Shown here: one piece after another, positions 16,011 through 29,317 of the stretch | Layout of the letters: each line of letters begins with the position of its first letter | How positions within the stretch are numbered: position 1 is the stretch's first letter | Source: Dehalococcoidia bacterium | Lineage (GTDB): Bacteria; Chloroflexota; Dehalococcoidia; SZUA-161; SpSt-899 | Length of the DNA stretch: 38,906 bases | Direction: 5' to 3' | Assembly: GCA_023271515.1 (NCBI GenBank) | Contig: JALPXQ010000003.1 | Span: 1 to 38,906, forward strand | Translations under genes and position numbers: made by a program | The notes under the pieces: model-generated | Told to the model about the DNA's origin: nothing | What the model saw: only the letters and a program-made list of their open reading frames with translations | The model's database searches: none

Positions 16011-18569
16011 ATGTCAAAAGTGAAAATCAGTATGTCAGTGTTGCTGACCGCTTTGGTGATGGTCAGTATGCTGGCAATGGGATGCCCGCCACGGGTGGTT
16101 GAGCCACCGGTGGTAGAGCCGCCAGTACGCATGGGGGCCTGGCTGGATGAGATTGTCGCCATCATCATGGATCACGACCTTGCGATCCCGAAGATCGCAG
16201 CAGGTGAGCTCCACCTGTTCGGTGACGACATAGCAGATCCCGAATTCTTCGAGAAGGTCGTGGCGCATCCAGAGATGGGCTACGAGAAACTGTTCGGGGT
16301 ATTTATGGAGTTGACCTTCAACCCCGCCGGGACCCCTGAGGATCCCACCTTCCGCGACGGCAGGCTCAATCCGTTCGCTGTCCCCCGGATACGGGAGGCG
16401 ATGAACTGGCTCCTCGATCGAGACTACATCGCCGAAGAGATCTGGAAGGGGATGGCGATTCCGAGGTATTTCCCCCTACATCCCGCCTTCCCCGACTATG
16501 CCAGAATTATCGACGTTGCCAGAGCACTCGAGCTCCGCTACGCCTACGACCCGGACAAGGGACGGGCAATAATCCTCGAGGAGATGGAGAAACTCGGTGC
16601 TGAGCTCATCGACGGCATCTGGCACTGGGAGATAGAGGGGGTGATGGAGCCGGTGGAGATAATCGTCCTTGGCCGGATCGAGGACGCCCGGAAAGAACTG
16701 GCCCACCACGTGACCGGGATACTGGAAGATCTGGGCTTTGTTGTCAAGGAGATGATCAAGACGGCAGCCGACGCGTCGCCGATCTGGCTCCACGGCCATC
16801 CCTATGACGGGCTGATGCACATCTACACCGGAGGCTGGATCGCCACCGTGATCTCCCGTGACCAGCGGGGAGTGTTTGACTTCTTCTACACCGAGAGGGG
16901 CATACCCCTCCCACTCTGGGAGTATACTAAACCCACTCCGGAGTTCGATGAGCTCGCCGAGAGGCTGGGCCTTGCCGACTACGAGTGCCTTGAGGAACGC
17001 GCCGCCATGATGGGAAGGGCCCTGGAACTGGTGATGCAGGACTCCCACCGGATATTTGTCGCCAATAGCGTGGGATTTATGCCGCGCCGGGCAGAGATCG
17101 CGCTTGCGTCCTGTCTTGCCGGGGGCATCGGCGGTGGCTGGCTCTGGGGGTTGACTATACGCTTCGAGTGCCCGGTTACGGGTGAAATTCAGCCAGGGGG
17201 ATCGGCGACCGTCGCCATGCCCAACCTTATGGTCGACCCCTGGAACCCGGTCGCCGGCTCCAACTGGCTCTTTGACTGGATGTTTAAACGGGCCATGTCC
17301 GAGTGGGGCGCGGCTCCGGATCCCTTCACGGGGCTATGGCATCCGCAGCGGCTCGAGCGAGCGGAGGTCTATGTAAGGGAGGGCCTGCCCGTCGGGGTAA
17401 CCCTTGACTGGGTAGACCTGCAGTTCGTCCCCGAGGCTATGGAGGTCCCGGCAGACGCCTGGGTTGACTGGTGTGCCGTGGAAGAGCGGTTCATCACTAA
17501 GGCCGAGGCCTCAGCAAAGGAAGGATGGGATCCCGAAAGGGCCACCGCCGACGCGAGAATCCGGGTTCACTATCCGGCCGACCTCTTCGACAAGGTGAAG
17601 TGGCACGACGGCAGCCCGCTTGACATGGGAGACTTCCTGATGCAGATGATTATTCATTTCGACAGGGCGAAGGAGGAGAGTCCCATCTTCGACCCCGCGT
17701 GGGTGCCGGAATACGAAACCTTCATGGAACACTTCCGCGGCGTGAGGATTGTAAGCGAGGATCCGCTTATCATCGAGTCCTACACCACTATGACCGCGCT
17801 GGATGCGGAGGTGATGGCTGCTGATTGGACCTGGTGGCCGGAGTATTTCCGTGGTCCTGGCGCCTGGCACAACGTGGCGCTGGGGGTACTTGCGGAGACG
17901 GCCGAGGAGCTTGCTTTTGGCTCCGCCAAGGCGGGCGATCTTGGGGTAGAGTGGATGAGCTTCATCGCCGGCCCGAGCCTGCCCATCCTTGAGCGGCACC
18001 TGGGCGAGGCCAAAGCGGGGGGCTGGATCCCTTATGCGCCCACACTCGGCGAGTTTATAACCCCCGAGGAAGCCGCTGCCCGCTATGCCAACTTGCAGAA
18101 CTGGTTTGAGGAGAGAGGGCATTTCTGGCTCGCCACGGGGCCGTTTTACCTCCATGCAGCGTTTCCCGTTGAGGAAATTCTGCATCTCAAGCGGTTCCCC
18201 TATTTCCCCGACCCGGCGGATAAATGGGTAGGCTTTGTTGAGCCCCGGATCGCTGAGGTCGATGTTACCGGGCCCAGGGTGGTCACCGCCGGGGACGAGG
18301 CGGCCTTCGATATCGAGGTGACCTTCGAGGGTGAGCCCTACCCGGTGGCCGATGTAGACTTCGTGACCTATCTTCTGGTCGACGCCACGGGTGAAATCGT
18401 CCATGTCGGTGAGGCCGTGGCAGTCCGGGATGGGCTGTGGCAGGTGGTGCTCCCCGGAGCATTGACCGCTGGACTGGTTGCAGGCTCCACCAGCCTGGAG
18501 GTGATCGTCGCACCTATAGTTGTCGCCATTCCCACCTTCGATGCGGCAATGTTTGTGCTGCTCCCATAA
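16011..18569 (+). CDS. Family-5 peptide-type ABC substrate-binding lipoprotein with apparently permuted lobes
   Basis: Extracytoplasmic solute-binding protein of an oligopeptide/dipeptide-type importer. The N-terminus is a lipoprotein signal (hydrophobic 8-24, then LAMGC) followed by a Pro/Val-rich linker. At 852 aa it is far longer than the usual roughly 550. Segments that normally lie in the second half of the family come first: NPFAVPRIREAMNWLLDRDY at about 120, then the AYDPDKGRAIILEEM, LEDLGFVVKEM and YTGGW region. The usual N-lobe signatures come later: LMVDPWNPVAGSNWLFDWMF at about 405 and VKWHDGSPLDMGDF at about 528. A C-terminal Ig-like domain (about 745-840) ends the protein. Strong AAAGGAGG site before the ATG. 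Substrate is inferred as peptides from the neighbours. Confidence 0.88.
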   Translation: MSKVKISMSVLLTALVMVSMLAMGCPPRVVEPPVVEPPVRMGAWLDEIVAIIMDHDLAIPKIAAGELHLFGDDIADPEFFEKVVAHPEMGYEKLFGVFMELTFNPAGTPEDPTFRDGRLNPFAVPRIREAMNWLLDRDYIAEEIWKGMAIPRYFPLHPAFPDYARIIDVARALELRYAYDPDKGRAIILEEMEKLGAELIDGIWHWEIEGVMEPVEIIVLGRIEDARKELAHHVTGILEDLGFVVKEMIKTAADASPIWLHGHPYDGLMHIYTGGWIATVISRDQRGVFDFFYTERGIPLPLWEYTKPTPEFDELAERLGLADYECLEERAAMMGRALELVMQDSHRIFVANSVGFMPRRAEIALASCLAGGIGGGWLWGLTIRFECPVTGEIQPGGSATVAMPNLMVDPWNPVAGSNWLFDWMFKRAMSEWGAAPDPFTGLWHPQRLERAEVYVREGLPVGVTLDWVDLQFVPEAMEVPADAWVDWCAVEERFITKAEASAKEGWDPERATADARIRVHYPADLFDKVKWHDGSPLDMGDFLMQMIIHFDRAKEESPIFDPAWVPEYETFMEHFRGVRIVSEDPLIIESYTTMTALDAEVMAADWTWWPEYFRGPGAWHNVALGVLAETAEELAFGSAKAGDLGVEWMSFIAGPSLPILERHLGEAKAGGWIPYAPTLGEFITPEEAAARYANLQNWFEERGHFWLATGPFYLHAAFPVEEILHLKRFPYFPDPADKWVGFVEPRIAEVDVTGPRVVTAGDEAAFDIEVTFEGEPYPVADVDFVTYLLVDATGEIVHVGEAVAVRDGLWQVVLPGALTAGLVAGSTSLEVIVAPIVVAIPTFDAAMFVLLP

Positions 18570-18638: not shown

Positions 18639-19793
18639 ATGAGCGAGATGGCTATCTCAGAGGCACAAGAAACTCGGGCAGGCCCCGGACAGGGTTCAGG
18701 GATAAGGATCATGCTTTCCCGCTCCCTTGCCAGGATCGGGAGGTACGCACTTGTCAGGCTGCTTACGATCGGCATCGCCGTCGTCATCGGGATATTGTTA
18801 ACCATCTTCATCGCCAACTGGGGCGGGCACCTGGATGAACTAAAGAAGGCTGAGATAAGCTATGGAGTGATGGTGGCTCTCCGCGAGCGGCCGGAATGGC
18901 GCATCTTGCCGAGGGAGGAGCGCGACGCAATCTACCAGGAGATGGTTGCCATCGAGCGGGCGCGGAGGGGGTTGGACAGGCCGTTCCTGGTGCGCACCCC
19001 CGGATACCTTATCAGTGCGCTAACGCTGGACCTGGGACGGGCGGCTCATATGACCAGCCCTTCCGGATCGAGCCAGGTGCGGCTGATCATCCTTGAGCTG
19101 CTCCCGGCCACCCTGGTGCTCTTCGGCCCCGCCAATCTTCTACTCTTTTTCCTCGCGCTCTTCGGCGCCCTCTTCCTCTCGCGCCGCTATGGAAGCAAGC
19201 TGGACAAGGCAATCATTGCCCTTGCTCCCACCTCAGCCGCCCCGGCGTGGTTTTACGGTCTCTTCTTAATCCTTATCTTCGCCGTAGTGTTGGGATGGTT
19301 GCCCTTCGGGGGGATGGTTGAGGCTCCACCCCCCCCAACGATATGGGGGTATGCCTTAAGCCTCCTTGAACACCTGGTTCTGCCCGTTACGGCCATCGTG
19401 ATCAGCGCCGTTTTCGTCAACATCTACTCCTGGCGCACCTTCTTCCTCATCCACTCCAGCGAGGACTATGTAGAGATGGCCAGGGCCAAGGGGCTGAGGT
19501 CGGGGGCGATCGAGCGAAAGTACGTCTTGCGGCCGACCCTCCCACCGATCATCATGCAGTTTGCCCTGACGCTCATCTTCATGTGGATGGGGGCTATCAT
19601 CCTGGAGACGATCTTCGGCTGGCCGGGACTGGGCAGGCAAATGTATAGAGCGATCCGCGGCGGCGAAACCCCGGTTATCGTAGGGATAACAATCATCTTT
19701 GCCTACCTGCTGGCGGCGACACTCTTTATTATAGATATCATCTTCGCGTTGGTTGATCCGCGGGTGAAGGTCGGGGCTGAAAGGAGGGTATGA
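18639..19793 (+). CDS. dppB: ABC transporter permease, DppB/OppB type
   Basis: Inner-membrane permease of the peptide-type importer. A roughly 30-residue N-terminal cytoplasmic tail precedes TM1 (about 41-60), a long extracytoplasmic segment rich in charged residues (about 65-140) and the BPD_transp_1 core with five more helices. The EAA loop that contacts the ATPase is in YVEMARAKGLRSGAIERKYV. ATG 18639 follows AAGGAG, although at a long distance of about 11 bases; ATG 18648 is possible. It is followed by dppC after 1 bp. Confidence 0.88.
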   Translation: MSEMAISEAQETRAGPGQGSGIRIMLSRSLARIGRYALVRLLTIGIAVVIGILLTIFIANWGGHLDELKKAEISYGVMVALRERPEWRILPREERDAIYQEMVAIERARRGLDRPFLVRTPGYLISALTLDLGRAAHMTSPSGSSQVRLIILELLPATLVLFGPANLLLFFLALFGALFLSRRYGSKLDKAIIALAPTSAAPAWFYGLFLILIFAVVLGWLPFGGMVEAPPPPTIWGYALSLLEHLVLPVTAIVISAVFVNIYSWRTFFLIHSSEDYVEMARAKGLRSGAIERKYVLRPTLPPIIMQFALTLIFMWMGAIILETIFGWPGLGRQMYRAIRGGETPVIVGITIIFAYLLAATLFIIDIIFALVDPRVKVGAERRV

Positions 19794-19794
19794 T

Positions 19795-21117
19795 ATGAGG
19801 CAGGGGTTGAGGCAACTGATGCGCTACCCGGCCGCCGTGGTGGGGCTGGCGATCATCGGGATACTCATAGTGGTGGCCATCTGGACCGTTATCGCCATCC
19901 CCTACAGTGAGGCGATAAGGCTCTGGCGAGGAGGGGGAGGAATCTGGGAGGAGTCCCCCAGGACCGCCTGGCCGCGCTGGATAAACCTCTTGCCATGGGA
20001 GAACCGCCCCACAACCATCATCGTGTGCAGCACGGAGGTAGGGGAAAAGACCGTACGGCCCCTGGCAGAGGGGATAAGCGAGGTGGAGATCGTGCTTCCA
20101 TTCGACTTCACCTATGACGGTTTCCCTCAGGAAGTGACCATATTCTTTGCGGCTGAGTACGATGAGCGACCGCCGCACGTAGAAATTACCTGGGTGACCC
20201 CTGATGGGAGAGAGATCCGCGTCGGGGAGATCACCGCAGTGGGAGCGTACCGTATGTCGCAAGATGCACACCTCACGCGCCGGCTTGGAGGGAAGCCCGC
20301 CCACATCGGGCTCTTTGCCGACCCGGCCGCCGAGGATCTGCCCATCAAGGGCGAATACGCTCTGCGGCTGGAGGGCTGGCTGTTTGAAGAGGACGCTGAT
20401 CTAGATGCCAGGCTGGTGGTCTATGGCCAGGTACACGGCCTTGCCGGGACCGACCACCTGCGCCGGGACCTGATGGTGGGGCTGTCCTGGGGGATTCCGG
20501 TCGCCCTCGCCTTCGGGGTTCTGGCGGCCGTGGGGGCACAGATAAGCACATTCCTCCTGGCGGCGATCGGGGTCTGGTATGGGAAGTGGGTGGATGGCGC
20601 TTTCCGCTGGCTCACCCAGGTGAACATCATCTTGCCGATGGTTCCCATTCTTATCATGGTCGGCATGTTCTTCTCGCGGAGCATCTGGGTGATACTGGGG
20701 GTAGTTATCCTCCTCAGTATCTTCAGCTCATCCTATTTTGTTTTGCGCGCCATGTTCCTCCAGATAAAGGAATCACCCTATATCGAGGCGGCCAGGGCAT
20801 ACGGAGCGGGGAGCTCCAGGATTATCTTCCGGTACCTGTGCCCCAAGATCATCCCGGTGCTCCTTCCACAGTTTGTTATGATAATCCCTACCTTTGTCTT
20901 CCTGGAGGCATCGCTGGCGGTTCTGGGACTGGGCGACCCGCTCCTGCCGACCCTGGGCAAGATAATATACGACGCCCGGGCCAACGCCGCCATTTACAGG
21001 GGATGGGAGTACTGGATAGTGCAGCCGGCGCTCATCCTTCTGGTCATGGGGCTTGGCTTTGCCATGGTCGGCTACACCCTTGACCGCGTCTTTAATCCAA
21101 GGCTGAGACAGATATGA
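19795..21117 (+). CDS. dppC: ABC transporter permease, DppC/OppC type, with extra extracytoplasmic domain
   Basis: Second permease. TM1 is at about 14-34. The family motif that normally follows within about 40 residues (GTDxxGRD) appears only at about 219 as GTDHLRRDLMVGL. The intervening roughly 150 extra residues look like a beta-rich soluble domain (for example VEITWVTPDGREIRVGEI). The usual core follows, with the EAA loop PYIEAARAYGAGSSRIIFRY. AAAGGAGGG precedes the ATG. The stop overlaps the next start as ATGA. Total length 440 aa versus about 300 for standard DppC. Confidence 0.87.
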   Translation: MRQGLRQLMRYPAAVVGLAIIGILIVVAIWTVIAIPYSEAIRLWRGGGGIWEESPRTAWPRWINLLPWENRPTTIIVCSTEVGEKTVRPLAEGISEVEIVLPFDFTYDGFPQEVTIFFAAEYDERPPHVEITWVTPDGREIRVGEITAVGAYRMSQDAHLTRRLGGKPAHIGLFADPAAEDLPIKGEYALRLEGWLFEEDADLDARLVVYGQVHGLAGTDHLRRDLMVGLSWGIPVALAFGVLAAVGAQISTFLLAAIGVWYGKWVDGAFRWLTQVNIILPMVPILIMVGMFFSRSIWVILGVVILLSIFSSSYFVLRAMFLQIKESPYIEAARAYGAGSSRIIFRYLCPKIIPVLLPQFVMIIPTFVFLEASLAVLGLGDPLLPTLGKIIYDARANAAIYRGWEYWIVQPALILLVMGLGFAMVGYTLDRVFNPRLRQI

Positions 21118-22076
21118 AGAAAGACACCCTTATCGGGATCGAGGATCTGCGCCTCTACTTCCGCTCCGGTAGGGGTATTGTCCAGGCGGTGGATGGGGTG
21201 AGCTTCACGCTCGGTCGAGGGCCGTCTATGGTAATCGTCGGCGAGTCCGGCTGCGGGAAGACCTCACTGGCCAGGGCGATCTTGAGGCTGCTGCCCCGCA
21301 ACGTGCATACCCATTCGGGGCGAGTCTCCCTCAATGGCATTGACATAATGAAGCTTGGAGAGGAGCGCTTCCGGCGGGAGGTGAGGTGGCGCAGGATCGC
21401 CATGGTACCCCAGGCGGCGATGAATTCTCTGAACCCCGTGATCAAGGTTGGGGATCAGGTAGCAGAGCCACTGCTCGTACATGGACTGGTGGGGGGGAAG
21501 GGAGAGGCAGCGGAGCGGGCACAGGAGGCGTGCAAACTGGTAGGGCTCCCGGTGGATTTCTTAGACCGTTACCCCTTTGAGCTCTCGGGGGGAATGCGGC
21601 AGCGTGCCGCCATCGCCATGGCGCTGGTGACGAAGCCGGCACTGGTAATCCTCGATGAGCCGACCTCGGCGCTGGATGTATTGACGCAGGCAAACATCAT
21701 GAATGTGCTGAAAAAGATCAAGCGGGAAGTTGAGACGAGCTTTATTCTCATTACCCATGACATCGCCACCTCCAGTGAGCTGGCGGACGAGGCGGCAATC
21801 ATGTACGCCGGGCAGATAGTGGAAATATGCGACGCGGCGCGATTCTATCGCGAACCCTTCCACCCCTACGCAAGGAAGCTTATGGCGAGCGTGCCGACAC
21901 TGCGGGGGGATAAGGAGCTCGAGTTTATTCCAGGGCGACCCCCGAGCCTGATCAACCCTCCCCGTGGCTGTCGCTTTGCCGATCGTTGTCCCTCCCGGCT
22001 CGGTAAGTGCGAGAAGGAACCACCGCTGGGAGAGATTAGCACCGGGCACTGGGTGAAGTGCTGGCTATACAACTGA
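21114..22076 (+). CDS. dppD: ABC transporter ATPase, DppD/OppD type
   Basis: ATP-hydrolysing subunit in the cytoplasm. Walker [11 protein letters not shown]-loop in MVPQAAMNSLNP, signature LSGGMRQRAAI, Walker B LVILDEPTSALD, H-loop ITHD, and the C-terminal oligopeptide-transporter extension (PPRGCRFADRCPSRLGKC). It starts inside the dppC stop (ATGA) and is followed 10 bp later by the second ATPase. Length 320 aa is normal. Confidence 0.94.
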   Translation: MKKDTLIGIEDLRLYFRSGRGIVQAVDGVSFTLGRGPSMVIVGESGCGKTSLARAILRLLPRNVHTHSGRVSLNGIDIMKLGEERFRREVRWRRIAMVPQAAMNSLNPVIKVGDQVAEPLLVHGLVGGKGEAAERAQEACKLVGLPVDFLDRYPFELSGGMRQRAAIAMALVTKPALVILDEPTSALDVLTQANIMNVLKKIKREVETSFILITHDIATSSELADEAAIMYAGQIVEICDAARFYREPFHPYARKLMASVPTLRGDKELEFIPGRPPSLINPPRGCRFADRCPSRLGKCEKEPPLGEISTGHWVKCWLYN

Positions 22077-22086
22077 GGCAACAGAA

Positions 22087-23055
22087 ATGCAGAATGATAT
22101 ACTGCTTAGAGTGGAAGACCTACACACCTGGTTTGAGTTGAGGAAGTGGGGATTCCTGCATGCGGGGTTTGTGCGGGCAGTGGACGGGGTAAGCTTCGAG
22201 CTTAAGCGTGGAGAGGCGGTCGCCATTGTCGGTGAGTCCGGCTGCGGGAAGAGCACCCTGGCGAAGACTATTTTAGGTCTCGTCCTGCCCACAAAGGGTG
22301 GAATCAGCTTTAATGGGCGGGGGCTTGAGGCAAAGAAAATACGGGAGTACCGCTCCCAGGTCGGCTACATCCAGCAGGACCCCTATGGGGCGCTTGCCTC
22401 CTTCTTGAACGTGAGGGGCATTCTGGAGGAGCCCCTGCGCATCAACGGAGTGGGAAGTGCCGAAAGGAAGGAACGCATCGAGGAGGTTCTGACGGAGGTG
22501 AAGCTGACGCCGGTGGGGGAGTTCCTCCCGAAGTTTCCCCACATGCTCAGCGGAGGGCAGCAGCAGCGTGTGGTGATCGCCCGCGCCATGATCCTGAAGC
22601 CGAAGCTTATCGTTGCCGATGAGCCGGTGTCCATGCTCGATGCCTCGGTTCGGGTGGAGATACTCCAGCTCCTGGAGGGACTTCAGCATGCTCACGACTT
22701 GGGAGTGATCTACATCACCCACGACCTTGCCACCGTCCGCTACTTTACGGAGCGTATCTTCGTCATGTACGGGGCGAATCTGGTGGAACGGGCCAGGGTG
22801 AAAGAGCTATTGGATAACCCACTGCATCCCTATACCCGGGCTTTACTCACAGCCACCTCCAATCCCGACCCGGAGAATGCCGCTACCTTCAAAGAGGTGC
22901 CCTCCGGAGAACCCCCAAGTCTGCGCAGCCCCCCTGCAGGGTGCAGGTTCCACCCCCGGTGTTCTTCTATCATAAAGGGATTGTGTGATGTGGAGAGGCC
23001 ACCGGACTTTGAGCGCGGGTGGGGGCACTTCGTGATGTGTTGGCTTTACAAATGA
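22087..23055 (+). CDS. dppF: ABC transporter ATPase, DppF/OppF type
   Basis: Partner ATPase of DppD. Walker A GESGCGKST, Q-loop YIQQDPYGALAS, signature LSGGQQQRVVI, Walker B LIVADEPVSMLD, H-loop ITHD, and the C-terminal extension with PPAGCRFHPRCSSI. This completes a five-component importer (binding protein, two permeases, two ATPases). Its stop overlaps the start of a small membrane-protein gene (ATGA), so the operon continues. Confidence 0.94.
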   Translation: MQNDILLRVEDLHTWFELRKWGFLHAGFVRAVDGVSFELKRGEAVAIVGESGCGKSTLAKTILGLVLPTKGGISFNGRGLEAKKIREYRSQVGYIQQDPYGALASFLNVRGILEEPLRINGVGSAERKERIEEVLTEVKLTPVGEFLPKFPHMLSGGQQQRVVIARAMILKPKLIVADEPVSMLDASVRVEILQLLEGLQHAHDLGVIYITHDLATVRYFTERIFVMYGANLVERARVKELLDNPLHPYTRALLTATSNPDPENAATFKEVPSGEPPSLRSPPAGCRFHPRCSSIIKGLCDVERPPDFERGWGHFVMCWLYK

Positions 23056-23281: not shown

Positions 23282-25774
23282 ATGATGAGGTTCTCTTGGT
23301 ATCTCATCTTAGCAGTTCTGGTCATGGCAGGTCTGTTTGGCCTGGTGATTTTTACCTGGCTGCAACCCGCGGTGCCGGTCGCCGATCAGGCTCCAATACC
23401 AGAAGGGACGATACCGCCCGGTGAGTCTATCCAGGAGGCTATCGATGGGGCGGAAGCAGGCGCGGTGATCCAGTTGGCAGCCGGAACCTGGGAGGAGAAT
23501 ATCAGGATCGACAGACCCCTGACACTAAAGGGTGCGGGTGCCGGACAGACGATAGTCGACGGGATCAAAGAGGGCTATCCGGTCGTTTGGATCGCGGCGG
23601 ATGAGCGAATCACGGTCAAGTTAGAGGGACTGACGATCACCGGAGCGGAGGAAGGAGATCCCGATGCGGAGAGCCGCGCCCGCGGGATACTGGCCCAGGG
23701 TGAACTGCACCTGAATATCACCAACTCCGCCGTCTCCGAAAACAGGCACGGCATCGAGCTCAGTGACTCGGCGCAGGCCGAAATCACTGGCACCACCTTC
23801 TCCCGGAACAGGCACGGGGTCATGCTCCGGGACTCAGCAAGGGCTGAGATCAGCAACTCCACCATCTCCGGTGACAGGGAAGGTGCCGGCATCCTCCTGA
23901 AGGACTCAGCACAGGCTGAGATCACCAATTCTGCCACATCGGGAAACTGGCATGGCATCCTGCTCAGGGACTCAGCGCAAGCAGAGATCAGCGACTCCGC
24001 CATTTCCCAGAACGAGGTAGGCATCGGGCTTGCAGGCGAAACGCAGGCCATGATCACCGGCTCCAACATCTCCGAGAACAGTTGGGGGATCGGGCTTGTG
24101 GGTAAAGCAGAGATAGCAATCACCACCTCCAATATCTCCGGGAACAGCCAGGAGGGGATCGGGGTTGGGGGCGAAGCACAGGCTGGGATCGCGGGTTCCA
24201 TCATCTCCGATAACAATCACGGCATCATCCTCCGGGGCACAGCACGGACAGAGATCAGCGATTCCACTATTTCCGGGAACAGATGGGGCATCGAACTTTC
24301 GGCAACAGCAGAGGCAGAGGTCTTCGAGGCCACCATTTCCGCAAACGGAGTTGCTGTCAGAGTCAGGCATTCAGCGCAGGTCGGAATCACCGGGTCTGAC
24401 ATCTCCGGGAACGGGTGGACTGGCATTGAGATCAGGGACTCGGCGCAGGCCGTGATCGCCGGCTCCGCCATCTCCGAGAATGTGGGGCCTGGCATAGCGC
24501 TTTCGGCAACTGCGCAGGCCGTGATCACTGGCTCCACCATTTCCGAAAACAGGGACGGCGCATGGCTGCGGAACTCCGCCCACCTAAAGATCACCGGCTC
24601 CGCCGTCTCCGGGAGCCAGCAGGATGGCTTCATACTGAGAAACTCAGCGTATTTAGAGGTCACGGACTCCACCATCTCCCGGAACGAGCGACACGGCATC
24701 AATCTGTTGAACTCAGCGCATGCTGTGGTCACCGGCTCCACCATCCGCGACAACCAAGAACATGGAGTCAAGCTTTCGTGCTTCGCGCACGGGGAGATCA
24801 CCGATAATCTCATCAAGGGCAATGGGAGGGGTGGAATTATATCCCTTTCAGATCGGCCGTTGACAGGGGGCAATAACACCATGCTGAAGAACGGCCTCGA
24901 CCTTCTAGGGAATCTCCCCTCCGGCCTGCGAAAGCCGCTGATGGAGCCGGTTGAATGGGAGATAAGGCTTCCCGATCCTGCTGTTCCCACCCTGCAGCAT
25001 GCGGTTGACGCTCTGCTGCCCGGAGGACGGCTGATCCTGGGTGAGGGCAGCTACACCGGTGGGGTGACGATCGGAAAAGACCTCACCATCATAGCCAAGG
25101 AAGGCGCGAAACCACGTATCGAAGGGGGATTTGCCGTTATCTCCCTGGCGAGGGCGGCACGAGTGAAAATAGACGGACTCCTCCTGAGGGACGGCTGGAT
25201 GGGGTTGGCCGGCGGCACCACTACTCAGATAGAGATCACCGACAGCACCATCTCCGAGAACAAAGCATATGGTATCAAGCTCTGGGACTCAGCGCAGGCT
25301 GTGATCACCGACTCTACCATCTCCCGGAACGAGAAACACGGCGTCCTGTTGTTGAACTCAGCGCAGACTACGATCACCGGTTCCACGATCTCCGATAATG
25401 GGTGGAACGGCATCGAGCTCAGGGATTGGGCGCAGGCAGAGATCACCGGCTCCACCTTCTCCGAGAACAGTGTGCACGGTATCAAGCTTTGGGATTCAGC
25501 ACAAGCGCTCCTGAGAGGGAACACGGCCATCAACAACAGGTATGGCGTCAGTGCTATACAACTCGTGCAGGGCTATATCGCAGGCTCCGCTAACACCATC
25601 CCAGGCCCTGGCGAGCCCGGTGGGAATCATATCAATGTCATCCCCGCGAGGCTATGCTTCCTGATGACCGAAGAGGGTGGGGAATATCGGCCGGTGGCTC
25701 CTACATTTCAGGAGCCTGCTCCACCTGCTCCACCTGTGCCCCGGCACTGGGTCGCCGAAGCCCGACGTCCGTAG
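23282..25774 (+). CDS. Membrane-anchored parallel beta-helix repeat protein (NosD/pectate-lyase-fold like)
   Basis: An 830-aa extracytoplasmic protein. An N-terminal hydrophobic helix (about 5-27) works as signal or anchor. Two modules follow. Each opens with a segment typical of right-handed beta-helices (IQEAIDGAEAGAVIQLAAGT at about 49; LQHAVDALLPGGRLILGEG at about 570) and continues with short repeats of the pattern AxITxSxISxNxxGIxLxxSA: about 17 copies in the first module, about 5 in the second. Catalytic residues are not evident, so polysaccharide or surface binding is as likely as lyase activity. The C-terminus after VAPTFQEP is Pro-rich, and its last codons and stop lie within the antisense of the dppA remnant, so the original end may have been lost. 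Confidence 0.82.
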   Translation: MMRFSWYLILAVLVMAGLFGLVIFTWLQPAVPVADQAPIPEGTIPPGESIQEAIDGAEAGAVIQLAAGTWEENIRIDRPLTLKGAGAGQTIVDGIKEGYPVVWIAADERITVKLEGLTITGAEEGDPDAESRARGILAQGELHLNITNSAVSENRHGIELSDSAQAEITGTTFSRNRHGVMLRDSARAEISNSTISGDREGAGILLKDSAQAEITNSATSGNWHGILLRDSAQAEISDSAISQNEVGIGLAGETQAMITGSNISENSWGIGLVGKAEIAITTSNISGNSQEGIGVGGEAQAGIAGSIISDNNHGIILRGTARTEISDSTISGNRWGIELSATAEAEVFEATISANGVAVRVRHSAQVGITGSDISGNGWTGIEIRDSAQAVIAGSAISENVGPGIALSATAQAVITGSTISENRDGAWLRNSAHLKITGSAVSGSQQDGFILRNSAYLEVTDSTISRNERHGINLLNSAHAVVTGSTIRDNQEHGVKLSCFAHGEITDNLIKGNGRGGIISLSDRPLTGGNNTMLKNGLDLLGNLPSGLRKPLMEPVEWEIRLPDPAVPTLQHAVDALLPGGRLILGEGSYTGGVTIGKDLTIIAKEGAKPRIEGGFAVISLARAARVKIDGLLLRDGWMGLAGGTTTQIEITDSTISENKAYGIKLWDSAQAVITDSTISRNEKHGVLLLNSAQTTITGSTISDNGWNGIELRDWAQAEITGSTFSENSVHGIKLWDSAQALLRGNTAINNRYGVSAIQLVQGYIAGSANTIPGPGEPGGNHINVIPARLCFLMTEEGGEYRPVAPTFQEPAPPAPPVPRHWVAEARRP
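23704..24833 (+). repeat. First block of about 17 beta-helix repeat units (66-72 bp each)
   Basis: The units encode 22-24 aa ending in SA/TA, with recurring DNA strings such as GACTCAGCGCAGGC and ACCATCTCC. They have diverged in the middle positions. The reverse strand is also open over long stretches because the repeats keep one phase. Confidence 0.85.
25221..25553 (+). repeat. Second block of about five beta-helix repeat units
   Basis: Same unit as the first block (for example ITDSTISENKAYGIKLWDSA). The block lies after a second module-opening segment, so the whole protein looks like a duplicated module with unequal repeat numbers. Confidence 0.8.
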
Positions 25775-26133: not shown

Positions 26134-27288
26134 ATGGAAGAACTCAAAGAAGAGGCTATCAAGCAGATTGAGAGTTTAAAGGATGAGCTTATCGAGCTGA
26201 GTGATAGGATACATAAGAATCCTGAGTTAGGGTTTGAGGAGCATAAGGCTTGTGCCTGGTTAACCGATATGCTTTCAGAGCATGGCTTTGAGGTAGAAAG
26301 AGGGGTAGCAGGCCTTAAGACAGCTTTTCGTGCAACCTTTACCGGCTCCAAAGAGCATCCTAGGGTTGCTCTTCTTGCAGAATACGATGCCCTGCCTGAG
26401 ATCGGGCATGCCTGTGGGCATAACATAATTGCTGCCAGCAGCGTAGGAGCAGCCATAGCATTGAGCAAGCTCAATTTGCCAGGCACTGTTGTGGTGTTGG
26501 GAACACCGGCCGAGGAAGGCGGTGGCGGTAAGATAATCATGATCGAACAAGGTGCCTTCAAGGGTATAGATGCAGCGATGATGATTCATCCTTCAGATCA
26601 GAACCTGATCTGGAAGGGATCGCTGGCTATAAAGCAGATAAGGATGAAGTTCAAGGGCAAATCAGCCCATGCCGCGGCCGAACCGGAAAAGGGTATAAAC
26701 GCCCTGGACGCAGTCATCCAGACCTTTAACAACATCAACGCTTTAAGGCAGCACCTCACCGAAGATGTGCGCATCCATGGAATAATCACTCACGGTGGAG
26801 TGAAGCCCAATATTGTGCCTGACTACGCAGAGGCCTATTTCTATGTGCGTGCACTGGAGGAAAACTACCTCCTGGAGGTATTAGAAAAGGTCAAAAATTG
26901 TGCCAAAGGTGCAGCATTGGCCCAGGGGGCTAAAGTAGAGTTTGAGATAGGTAGAGGATATAGATCTCACAAGCCGAACCACGCATTAGCCGAGGCATTT
27001 GAGGCCAACCTGTTAGCATTAGGTGTAAAGCCTGATAGACCGCCGGAGCATGGTGGTATAGGCTCAAGCGATATAGGTGATGTGAGCCATGTTGTGCCGG
27101 CCATCCATCCTTATATCTCTATCACCGAAGGGGAACTTCCAGGTCATTCACCTGAGTTTGCTGAGGCTGCTTGTTCAGAAAAAGGGCACCGGGGGCTAGT
27201 TATCGGTGCAAAAGCACTTGCAATGACCGCTATTGATTTATTTATCCATGATATTTTAGCAAGGAGGGAAGAATCGTGGCACCGTTGA
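26134..27288 (+). CDS. M20-family amidohydrolase / dipeptidase (AbgB, PM20D2-like)
   Basis: Cytoplasmic zinc hydrolase of N-acyl amino acids or dipeptides. Metal and catalytic motifs: EYDALPEIGHACGHN at about 90-104, TPAEEGGGGK with the EE pair, the lid-domain segment GKSAHAAAEPEKGINALDA, and a late GSSDIGDVSH followed by ELPGHSPEFAEAA. Length 384 aa is normal. The ribosome site (AAGGGGGC) is far from the ATG. The gene is more A+T-rich than both neighbours, so it may have been acquired separately. It overlaps the next GTG start by 13 bp, which indicates co-transcription with the ATPases. Confidence 0.9.
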   Translation: MEELKEEAIKQIESLKDELIELSDRIHKNPELGFEEHKACAWLTDMLSEHGFEVERGVAGLKTAFRATFTGSKEHPRVALLAEYDALPEIGHACGHNIIAASSVGAAIALSKLNLPGTVVVLGTPAEEGGGGKIIMIEQGAFKGIDAAMMIHPSDQNLIWKGSLAIKQIRMKFKGKSAHAAAEPEKGINALDAVIQTFNNINALRQHLTEDVRIHGIITHGGVKPNIVPDYAEAYFYVRALEENYLLEVLEKVKNCAKGAALAQGAKVEFEIGRGYRSHKPNHALAEAFEANLLALGVKPDRPPEHGGIGSSDIGDVSHVVPAIHPYISITEGELPGHSPEFAEAACSEKGHRGLVIGAKALAMTAIDLFIHDILARREESWHR

Positions 27289-28259
27289 TTGAGGTGAGAG
27301 GTCTCAAGACGTATTTCTATACCGATGACGGCGTAGTGCGGGCGGTGGATGGGGTTGATTTCACCATTGAGCAGGAGAAGACTCTCGGGGTGGTCGGTGA
27401 GAGCGGGTGCGGAAAGTCGGTGACCGCGCTCTCCATCATGGGGCTTATCCAGACGCCGCCGGGCAAGATCGAGGCCGGTGAGATCCTCTACCACCGGAAC
27501 GGGAATGTCACCGAGCTGACCAATCTCGATCCCAAAGGAAAGGAGTACCGCTCGATCCGGGGAAACGAGATCGCCATGATCTTCCAGGAGCCGATGACTT
27601 CCTTGAACCCGGTTTATACCATCGGGAACCAGATCATGGAGGCGATCATCCTCCACCAGAAGGTAGGGAAAAAGGAGGCCCGTAAGCGCGCGGTAGCGAT
27701 GCTGGAGGCGGTAGGCATTCCCTTGCCCCGGCAACGGATCGATGAATATCCTCATCAGCTCTCCGGCGGGATGCGCCAGCGTGCCATGATCGCCATGGCC
27801 CTCTCCTGTAACCCTTCTCTCCTCATCGCCGATGAGCCCACCACAGCGCTCGATGTCACGATTGAGGCGCAGGTGCTGACCCTGATGCACGACCTGCGCA
27901 AGGAGTTCAAGACGGCGATGATGTTGATCACCCACGACCTCGGGGTTATCGCCAGTATGGCCGATGACGTAGTTGTTATGTACCTGGGCAAGATCGTTGA
28001 AGGATCGACCGTCAGGAACGTCTTCCATCACACCAAACACCCGTACACGCAGGGGTTGATGAGCTCGATCCCGTCGCTGGCCACAAAGAGACATCGCCTT
28101 GTCCCCATTGAGGGGGTGGTCCCCGACCCGTTTGAAGTACCGGCGGGATGCGGCTTCGAGCCGCGGTGCCCCCAGTCGATGGGGATCTGCAAAAGGGAGA
28201 CTCCGCCGCTTAAGGAAGTTGTCCCCGGGCACCGGGCAGCCTGCTGGCTGTACGAATAA
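27276..28259 (+). CDS. Second ABC ATPase, DppD/OppD type
   Basis: Peptide-transporter ATPase with Walker A GESGCGKSV, Q-loop FQEPMTSLNP, signature LSGGMRQRAMI, Walker B LLIADEPTTALD, H-loop ITHD and the C-terminal PAGCGFEPRCPQSMG extension. GTG start with AAGGAGGG about 6 bases upstream. There are no permease or binding-protein genes next to this pair, so it either serves permeases encoded elsewhere or substitutes in the importer at 16-23 kb. It is followed 17 bp later by its partner. Confidence 0.93.
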   Translation: MAPLIEVRGLKTYFYTDDGVVRAVDGVDFTIEQEKTLGVVGESGCGKSVTALSIMGLIQTPPGKIEAGEILYHRNGNVTELTNLDPKGKEYRSIRGNEIAMIFQEPMTSLNPVYTIGNQIMEAIILHQKVGKKEARKRAVAMLEAVGIPLPRQRIDEYPHQLSGGMRQRAMIAMALSCNPSLLIADEPTTALDVTIEAQVLTLMHDLRKEFKTAMMLITHDLGVIASMADDVVVMYLGKIVEGSTVRNVFHHTKHPYTQGLMSSIPSLATKRHRLVPIEGVVPDPFEVPAGCGFEPRCPQSMGICKRETPPLKEVVPGHRAACWLYE

Positions 28260-28276
28260 TGAGGAGGTGAAAGAGT

Positions 28277-29317
28277 TTGGCTTCTGATAATGTTCTACTT
28301 GAAGTAAAGAACCTGAAGAAGTACTTCCCCGTGCGTAAGGGGATACTGAGGCGTGTGGTGGCCCATGTCAAGGCGGTCGACGATGTTGACCTGTACATCA
28401 AAGAGGGGGAGACCTTTGGGTTGGTGGGGGAGAGCGGCTGTGGGAAGACCACTATCGGCCGCACGATCCTTCGCCTGATCGAGCCGACCGCCGGCGGGGT
28501 CATCTTCCGGAGCAAGAGGCTTGCCAATTCAAGCGAGCAATACAGGGAGGTGGATGTGACCGCCGCCTCTCCGAAAGTGATGAAGGCGCTGCGCCGCGAT
28601 ATGCAGATCATCTTCCAGGACCCCTATTCCTCCCTGAACCCACGGATGACCGTGGGGGCCATCGTGGGGGAGCCGCTGCTGGTGCACGGTGTAGCCAGGG
28701 GGAGTGAACGGGAGGATCGCGTCCGCCACCTGCTGGGTGCCGTCGGGCTAAAGCCGGACCACATGAAGCGCTATCCCCACGAGTTCTCCGGTGGCCAGCG
28801 ACAGAGGATCGGGATTGCCCGTGCCCTTGCCCTGGAGCCGCAGCTGATCGTGGCTGACGAGCCGATCTCCGCCCTCGATGTTTCCATCCAGGCGCAGGTG
28901 TTGAACCTCCTGGAGGACCTTCAGGATGAATTCGGTCTGACCTACCTGTTCATCGCCCACAATCTCTCCGTGGTCAAGCATATCAGCGACCGGGTGGCGG
29001 TGATGTATCTCGGAAGGATAGTGGAGCTGGCCAGGACCGAGGAGCTGTTTGACAACCCGAAGCACCCCTACACCGAGGCGCTGATGTCGGCGGTTCCGGT
29101 TCCCGATCCCGATTACAGCGCGGAGCGAATCATCCTCAAGGGGGACGTCCCCAGTCCGGTCAATCCACCCTCCGGCTGCTACTTTCACCCGCGCTGCCGT
29201 TACGCCAGGGAGGTCTGCAAAACGGAGACCCCGGTCTATCGGCACCTCGGCGGGGAACACTTCGTCACCTGTCACCTGGCCGACTCGCTGAATCTGCGGC
29301 CGGTGCGGAAGGGTTGA
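28277..29317 (+). CDS. Second ABC ATPase, DppF/OppF type
   Basis: Partner ATPase with Walker [11 protein letters not shown]-loop [15 protein letters not shown], signature [11 protein letters not shown], Walker [14 protein letters not shown]-loop IAHN and extension [14 protein letters not shown]. The start is TTG 28277 with GGAGGTG 7 bases upstream; no ATG gives a better fit. The last 65 coding bases are part of a 70-bp sequence repeated at 31123-31192. Confidence 0.92.

Follow-up and report, generated by a model that had tools for sequence, protein, structure and literature searches.

Evidence for a natural circular permutant of the OppA/DppA binding-protein fold in a Dehalococcoidia importer locus

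To our knowledge, circular permutation of whole binding-protein folds has rarely been documented in nature. One described case is Tp0684/MglB-2 of Treponema pallidum, a naturally circularly permuted lipoprotein binding protein of a cluster B ABC importer, in which the permutation is limited to the terminal strands of the N-lobe and whose distribution is mostly confined to treponemes and Gram-positives; recruitment of one part from a different gene was also considered there (PMC4990184). Our literature searches on permuted binding proteins, with subscription journals mostly outside their coverage, returned no reported case for the OppA cluster (cluster C).

Here we analyse a 38,906-nucleotide stretch of Dehalococcoidia DNA (the window) that encodes what is almost certainly a natural circular permutant of the OppA/DppA fold (SBP_bac_5, cluster C), and in our best reading a lipid-anchored Venus-flytrap receptor serving the importer downstream of it. 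Its nearest solved relative is Thermococcus kodakaraensis OppA (7fi3), both by sequence (whole-sequence E = 2.4e-66 with a profile of seven homologues) and by fold (7e-19), and the two proteins have WNP, HDG, NPF..R.A...NR and YTEGW motifs and large insertions in common. Unlike the window protein, 7fi3 has its first half (22-305) ahead of its second (309-599), as is ordinary, and an Ig domain after the fold was not recognised in the part compared. E. coli DppA and OppA (SBP_bac_5, cluster C) share the fold and the OppBCDF-type operon partners, but differ in chain order and length (about 510-540 aa versus about 850) and in having neither the extra Ig domain nor the extra β-sandwich found in the permease PermC of the present system. 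The likeness to MglB-2 is one of principle only, namely a natural circular permutation in an ABC-importer binding lipoprotein, as the sugar-binding fold of MglB-2 belongs to cluster B and was opened at a different site.

Chain layout and sequence matches

The open reading frame at 16011-18569 (+) runs uninterrupted for 852 aa. An earlier note on this DNA had placed features of the second half of a family-5 binding protein ahead of those of the first half, followed by an Ig-like domain; this layout was borne out (residues ~42-403, ~404-745 and a final ~107 aa), and the motifs and coordinates given there are correct. NPFAVPRIREAMNWLLDRDY occupies residues 120-139, AYDPDKGRAIILEEM residues 178-192 and GGW residues 274-276, followed by PWNP at ~410-413 and KWHDGSPLDMGDF at 530-542; the first half (residues 404-745) contains WNP and WHDG motifs and has GPFYL...KRFPYFPDP at its end. 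The gene is divided as follows.

16011..16085, + strand: signal peptide with lipobox-like LAMGC, Cys 25 expected to be lipidated (sequence; a very similar leader on other lipoproteins of the genus)
16086..16133, + strand: Pro-rich tether, residues 26-41 (sequence; low pLDDT around residues 23-28)
16134..17219, + strand: second half of the family-5 binding fold, residues 42-403, profile 148-351 and beyond (Pfam, 7fi3 profile, half-models, AlphaFold2)
17166..17219, + strand: new internal junction of old C-terminus to old N-terminus, residues ~386-403 (alignment and halves model)
17220..18245, + strand: first half of the family-5 binding fold, residues 404-745 (7fi3 matches, half-models, rotated profile)
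18246..18566, + strand: C-terminal Ig-like β domain, residues 746-852, immediately behind the fold's new C-terminus (AlphaFold2 strands 749-851, pLDDT >90)

Two long reverse-strand open frames, 16476-17048 (-) and 17511-18404 (-), overlap the gene and are judged to be mechanical shadows of high-GC coding, not genes.

The sole Pfam match of the native chain is SBP_bac_5, with residues 45-281 at positions 148-351 of the 368-position profile (1.6e-14) and a score, 54.2 bits against a cut-off of 32.4, that makes the protein a member of the family; the second half of the domain therefore lies at the N-terminus. A phmmer search of the PDB matched 7fi3_A twice, with the order reversed: residues 524-738 of the query fell on chain positions 100-312, and residues 95-281 on 374-571. 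The seven-homologue family profile placed positions 386-677 on chain 22-305 (9.4e-24) and positions 23-285 on chain 309-599 (1.2e-41), both far beyond chance. Both halves match 7fi3, so that the whole fold is present, and the Pfam, 7fi3 and half-model matches, all with the second half first, exclude a normal lobe order. None of the NCBIfam equivalogs Opp4A, NikA, DppA and GsiB exceeded its curated cut-off, the best being Opp4A (18.4 bits versus 650). The chain departs from the canonical order of SBP_bac_5 and cluster C, and because its second half comes first we file it only as a permuted variant of the SBP_bac_5 fold family. Nor does it belong with the MglB-2 type (Cluster Bc, whose type I/cluster B fold has its N-lobe strands permuted), since its sequence and fold are those of cluster C. 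The generic SBP_bac_5 label covers half of the permuted protein, and the domain annotation of such proteins is thus systematically truncated.

A chain of 852 aa exceeds the 500-550 aa usual for these binding proteins and might consist of two complete tandem domains, a fused duplication that merely resembles two halves. However, each half-model found one match per protein, split hits aside, the two regions match complementary, non-overlapping parts of 7fi3, and the extra length is made up of the leader, insertions in common with the 732-aa 7fi3, and the Ig domain. With each half present once in the 852 aa, as judged from these sequence matches, a tandem duplication was rejected, and we regard it as extremely improbable.

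Rotation of the chain and predicted structure

We rotated the chain, placing residues ~404-740 ahead of ~42-404, and repeated the searches. The Pfam match, restricted to residues 45-281 in the native order, became one stretch of residues 128-581 over profile 25-351 (7.6e-18), and 7fi3 was likewise matched in a single stretch (100-571). With three-sequence family profiles, the match to 7fi3 changed from two stretches and 206.6 bits in the native order to one stretch and 223.4 bits after rotation, while the E-value for E. coli DppA improved from 1.2e-4 to 5e-8, with rotated profile positions 271-451 aligned on DppA 173-339 across the rejoined point. As the rotated alignments are collinear across the joint, the two ends of the native fold adjoin in the ordinary chain, which identifies a true circular permutation and upholds the circularly permuted lobes proposed in the earlier note. 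The cut falls in the loop that leads from the GPFYL...RF hairpin to the next strand, at a position corresponding to about residue 208 of mature E. coli DppA and to about residues 310-325 of its Thermococcus OppA counterpart; a short linker joins the old termini. We take the cut to lie in domain I of the OppA/DppA fold, where the old termini lie as well, and for this reason the hinge and the ligand cleft should be preserved.

These alignments also bear on independent convergence, in which the C-terminal half would have been recruited from a different gene and not moved within one. The first half is the more diverged of the two and is missed by Pfam in the native order, as recruitment might lead one to expect, but the C-terminal half specifically matches the N-terminal half of 7fi3, which is the best match of the other half too (9e-24 and 1e-41), and the alignment of the rotated sequence continues through the joint. 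We consider recruitment unlikely and retain circular permutation.

AlphaFold2, supplied with 42 aligned family members, folded the native chain with high confidence (pLDDT 93.7, pTM 0.88), the last 107 residues being all-β in the model. The 50 best Foldseek matches of this model in the PDB are all family-5 binding proteins, with 7fi3 at the top; the alignments span 309-394 columns, about half the length, at target TM 0.33-0.49, as would be expected of a sequential aligner, to which just one block of a two-block permuted protein is accessible. Together with the matches of both halves to 7fi3, the model points to a whole two-lobe fold with new termini. The protein would accordingly adopt the usual bilobed Venus flytrap, with both new termini in lobe I.

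Distribution and origin of the permuted order

Relatives of the protein are encoded at 528 loci in the genome collection. The best 80 of the 528 (43-95% identity) are single ORFs that align colinearly with essentially all of the window protein, from records named as Chloroflexota/Dehalococcoidia/Anaerolineae, Bacillota, Acetothermia, Thioalkalivibrio, Aquisalimonas, Armatimonadetes, Bathyarchaeota and Ignisphaera; most family loci come from metagenome-assembled genomes (MAGs), and single taxon labels may be wrong. Typing of ORFs with one model for each half, in which some typed loci overlap, gave about 150 ORFs of second-then-first order and one of first-then-second order, 7fi3 itself, and twelve further typed ORFs were likewise permuted. 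The earlier note had proposed a survey of homologues for their order, and every full-length homologue typed has its second half first, among them proteins of Chloroflexota, Bacillota, Pseudomonadota, Thermoproteota and others. With 7fi3 as query at 1e-3, matches were obtained in 39 of 301 Chloroflexota and 121 of 200 Thermoproteota-group genomes, counts that include generic weak binding-protein hits; profile searches at 1e-30 yielded 2 of 200 genomes in the phylum of Aquisalimonas and 12 of 200 in that of the Peptococcaceae locus. Close relatives of canonical order were sought in the 301 Chloroflexota and 200 Thermoproteota genomes; every one retrieved had the permuted order, and canonical binding proteins of the generic kind were far weaker matches. 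Thermococcus OppA is the only close relative observed in the ordinary order. The plasmid collection, searched by protein, gave no match, and no solved structure among the PDB sequence matches examined has the permuted order.

The window and most homologues being MAG sequences, one could ask whether an assembly, frameshift or annotation artefact had joined two pieces of binding-protein genes in the wrong order. Yet the order is read in a single open frame and recurs in genomes 96%, 63-69% and 45-50% identical, in single-contig genomes, in several phyla and in the cultured isolate Aquisalimonas lutea CECT 8326 (L094). An assembly chimera was rejected, as independent homologues share the permuted order, and we attach virtually no probability to an artefact of any of these kinds. 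The permuted OppA-type fold is thus present in hundreds of bacterial and archaeal genomes, which constitute a natural experiment on the role of termini position, membrane tether and accessory domains in ABC importers, and offer ready-made permuted scaffolds for biosensor design.

In rooted trees built for the second half and for both halves concatenated after re-ordering, Thermococcus OppA falls inside the permuted family, beside archaeal permuted proteins, which would mean either that canonical order was regained or that permutation occurred twice. Support is not decisive: the AU test does not reject the best tree in which the permuted rows all group together (p 0.257 and 0.118), and the trees have long branches and gappy outgroups. 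It is conceivable, although we would put it below an even chance, that a large prokaryotic OppA subfamily was permuted in its old, normal state and that Thermococcus OppA, the one member with a solved structure, represents a later return; chain order in the OppA fold would then have switched at least twice. The permutation itself may have arisen by the usual route, in which tandem duplicates fuse and the outer halves are then lost; raw material for it exists in tandem permuted genes (G340) and in canonical genes adjoining permuted ones (L036, L047, L057, L074 and L092).

At these five loci the canonical-order gene lies directly upstream of the permuted one, which suggests two receptors for one or two importers. 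One of them also joins the permuted protein and PermB in a single, topologically odd 1204-aa frame (L074:5094-8708); this is probably a lost stop or a sequencing error but could be a real fusion, and because the stop codon may be lost we left it out of the topological evidence.

Importer, membrane anchor and accessory domains

The genes immediately downstream encode the remaining parts of an importer.

18639..19793, + strand: PermB, OppB/DppB-type permease, 384 aa (Pfam BPD_transp_1, NCBIfam Opp4B-like)
19795..21117, + strand: PermC, OppC/DppC-type permease, 440 aa (Pfam/NCBIfam; Foldseek to DppC/OppC cryo-EM chains)
20002..20439, + strand: extra extracellular β-sandwich of PermC, residues ~70-215 (AlphaFold2; present in aligned PermC homologues)
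21114..22076, + strand: AtpD, DppD-type ATPase (ABC_tran + oligo_HPY)
22087..23055, + strand: AtpF, DppF-type ATPase (ABC_tran + oligo_HPY)

The binding protein is thus encoded with OppB/OppC permeases and OppD/OppF ATPases, as in cluster C, and this gene order is conserved in most loci. The permuted protein would bind its ligand, close, and deliver it to the PermB/PermC/AtpD/AtpF importer. That the protein has left the transporter and serves as a sensor or scaffold domain is suggested by one Anaerolineae MAG (L065:4732-8481), in which a 1249-aa ORF combines a Ser/Thr protein kinase, a transmembrane segment, and a complete permuted binding protein with its Ig domain, the permuted part hanging outside the kinase via its new N-terminus; this ORF is a candidate receptor kinase for ligand sensing. 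In the window and in most loci, however, the gene is directly followed by those for two permeases and two ATPases, making such a role very unlikely for the window protein. As far as can be told, the protein is ordinary in function, and unusual in its chain topology and breadth.

Members of cluster C bind a peptide, Ni chelate, sugar or other ligand in the cleft between their lobes. Here the ligands are probably oligopeptides, a peptide being the likeliest choice: 7fi3 was solved with a pentapeptide (per its entry title), and genes for M20, S9 and PepX-type peptidases, for alanine racemase and for amidohydrolases also lie in the window, although several of these are encoded on the opposite strand.

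A lipid anchor at the new N-terminus, predicted from the lipobox-like motif, would hold the protein to the membrane. Most Chloroflexota homologues have a lipobox, whereas many archaeal members and one bacterial branch have instead a C-terminal transmembrane helix after the Ig domain. With a lipobox or kinase tether at one end and a transmembrane helix at the other among homologues, both new termini can be membrane-proximal. The leader (first ~40-47 residues, MSKVKxxMSLLxTALLVVSxxAMGCPP; window 16011-16130) recurs at 53-74% identity before other, apparently unrelated lipoproteins of the same genus (L008, L010-L013, L015), and we regard it as a reused leader module.

The extra external domain that the earlier note ascribed to one permease is real. 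It is the PermC β-sandwich, inserted after TM1 and conserved alongside the permuted protein, for which Foldseek gave weak resemblance to CBM61, BMP9-prodomain-type folds and MalF. The last of these (2r6g_F) offers an analogy in the P2 loop of the maltose transporter, also an extracellular β domain in the permease of a binding-protein-dependent importer, although MalF belongs to a different transporter type and has no sequence link to PermC. The Ig-like domain, 106-108 aa long in most bacterial homologues, would probably act as a stalk or docking module next to this sandwich. It is plausible that the permutation alters the geometry of anchor, Ig domain and permeases, and it may bring a functional gain.

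Elsewhere in the window, a second Opp-type ATPase pair (27276-29317) stands beside an M20 peptidase without adjoining permeases or binding protein. Just downstream of the importer, 23282-25774 encodes an 830-aa secreted right-handed β-helix protein (Beta_helix/NosD-like) with many near-identical repeats of ~23 residues.
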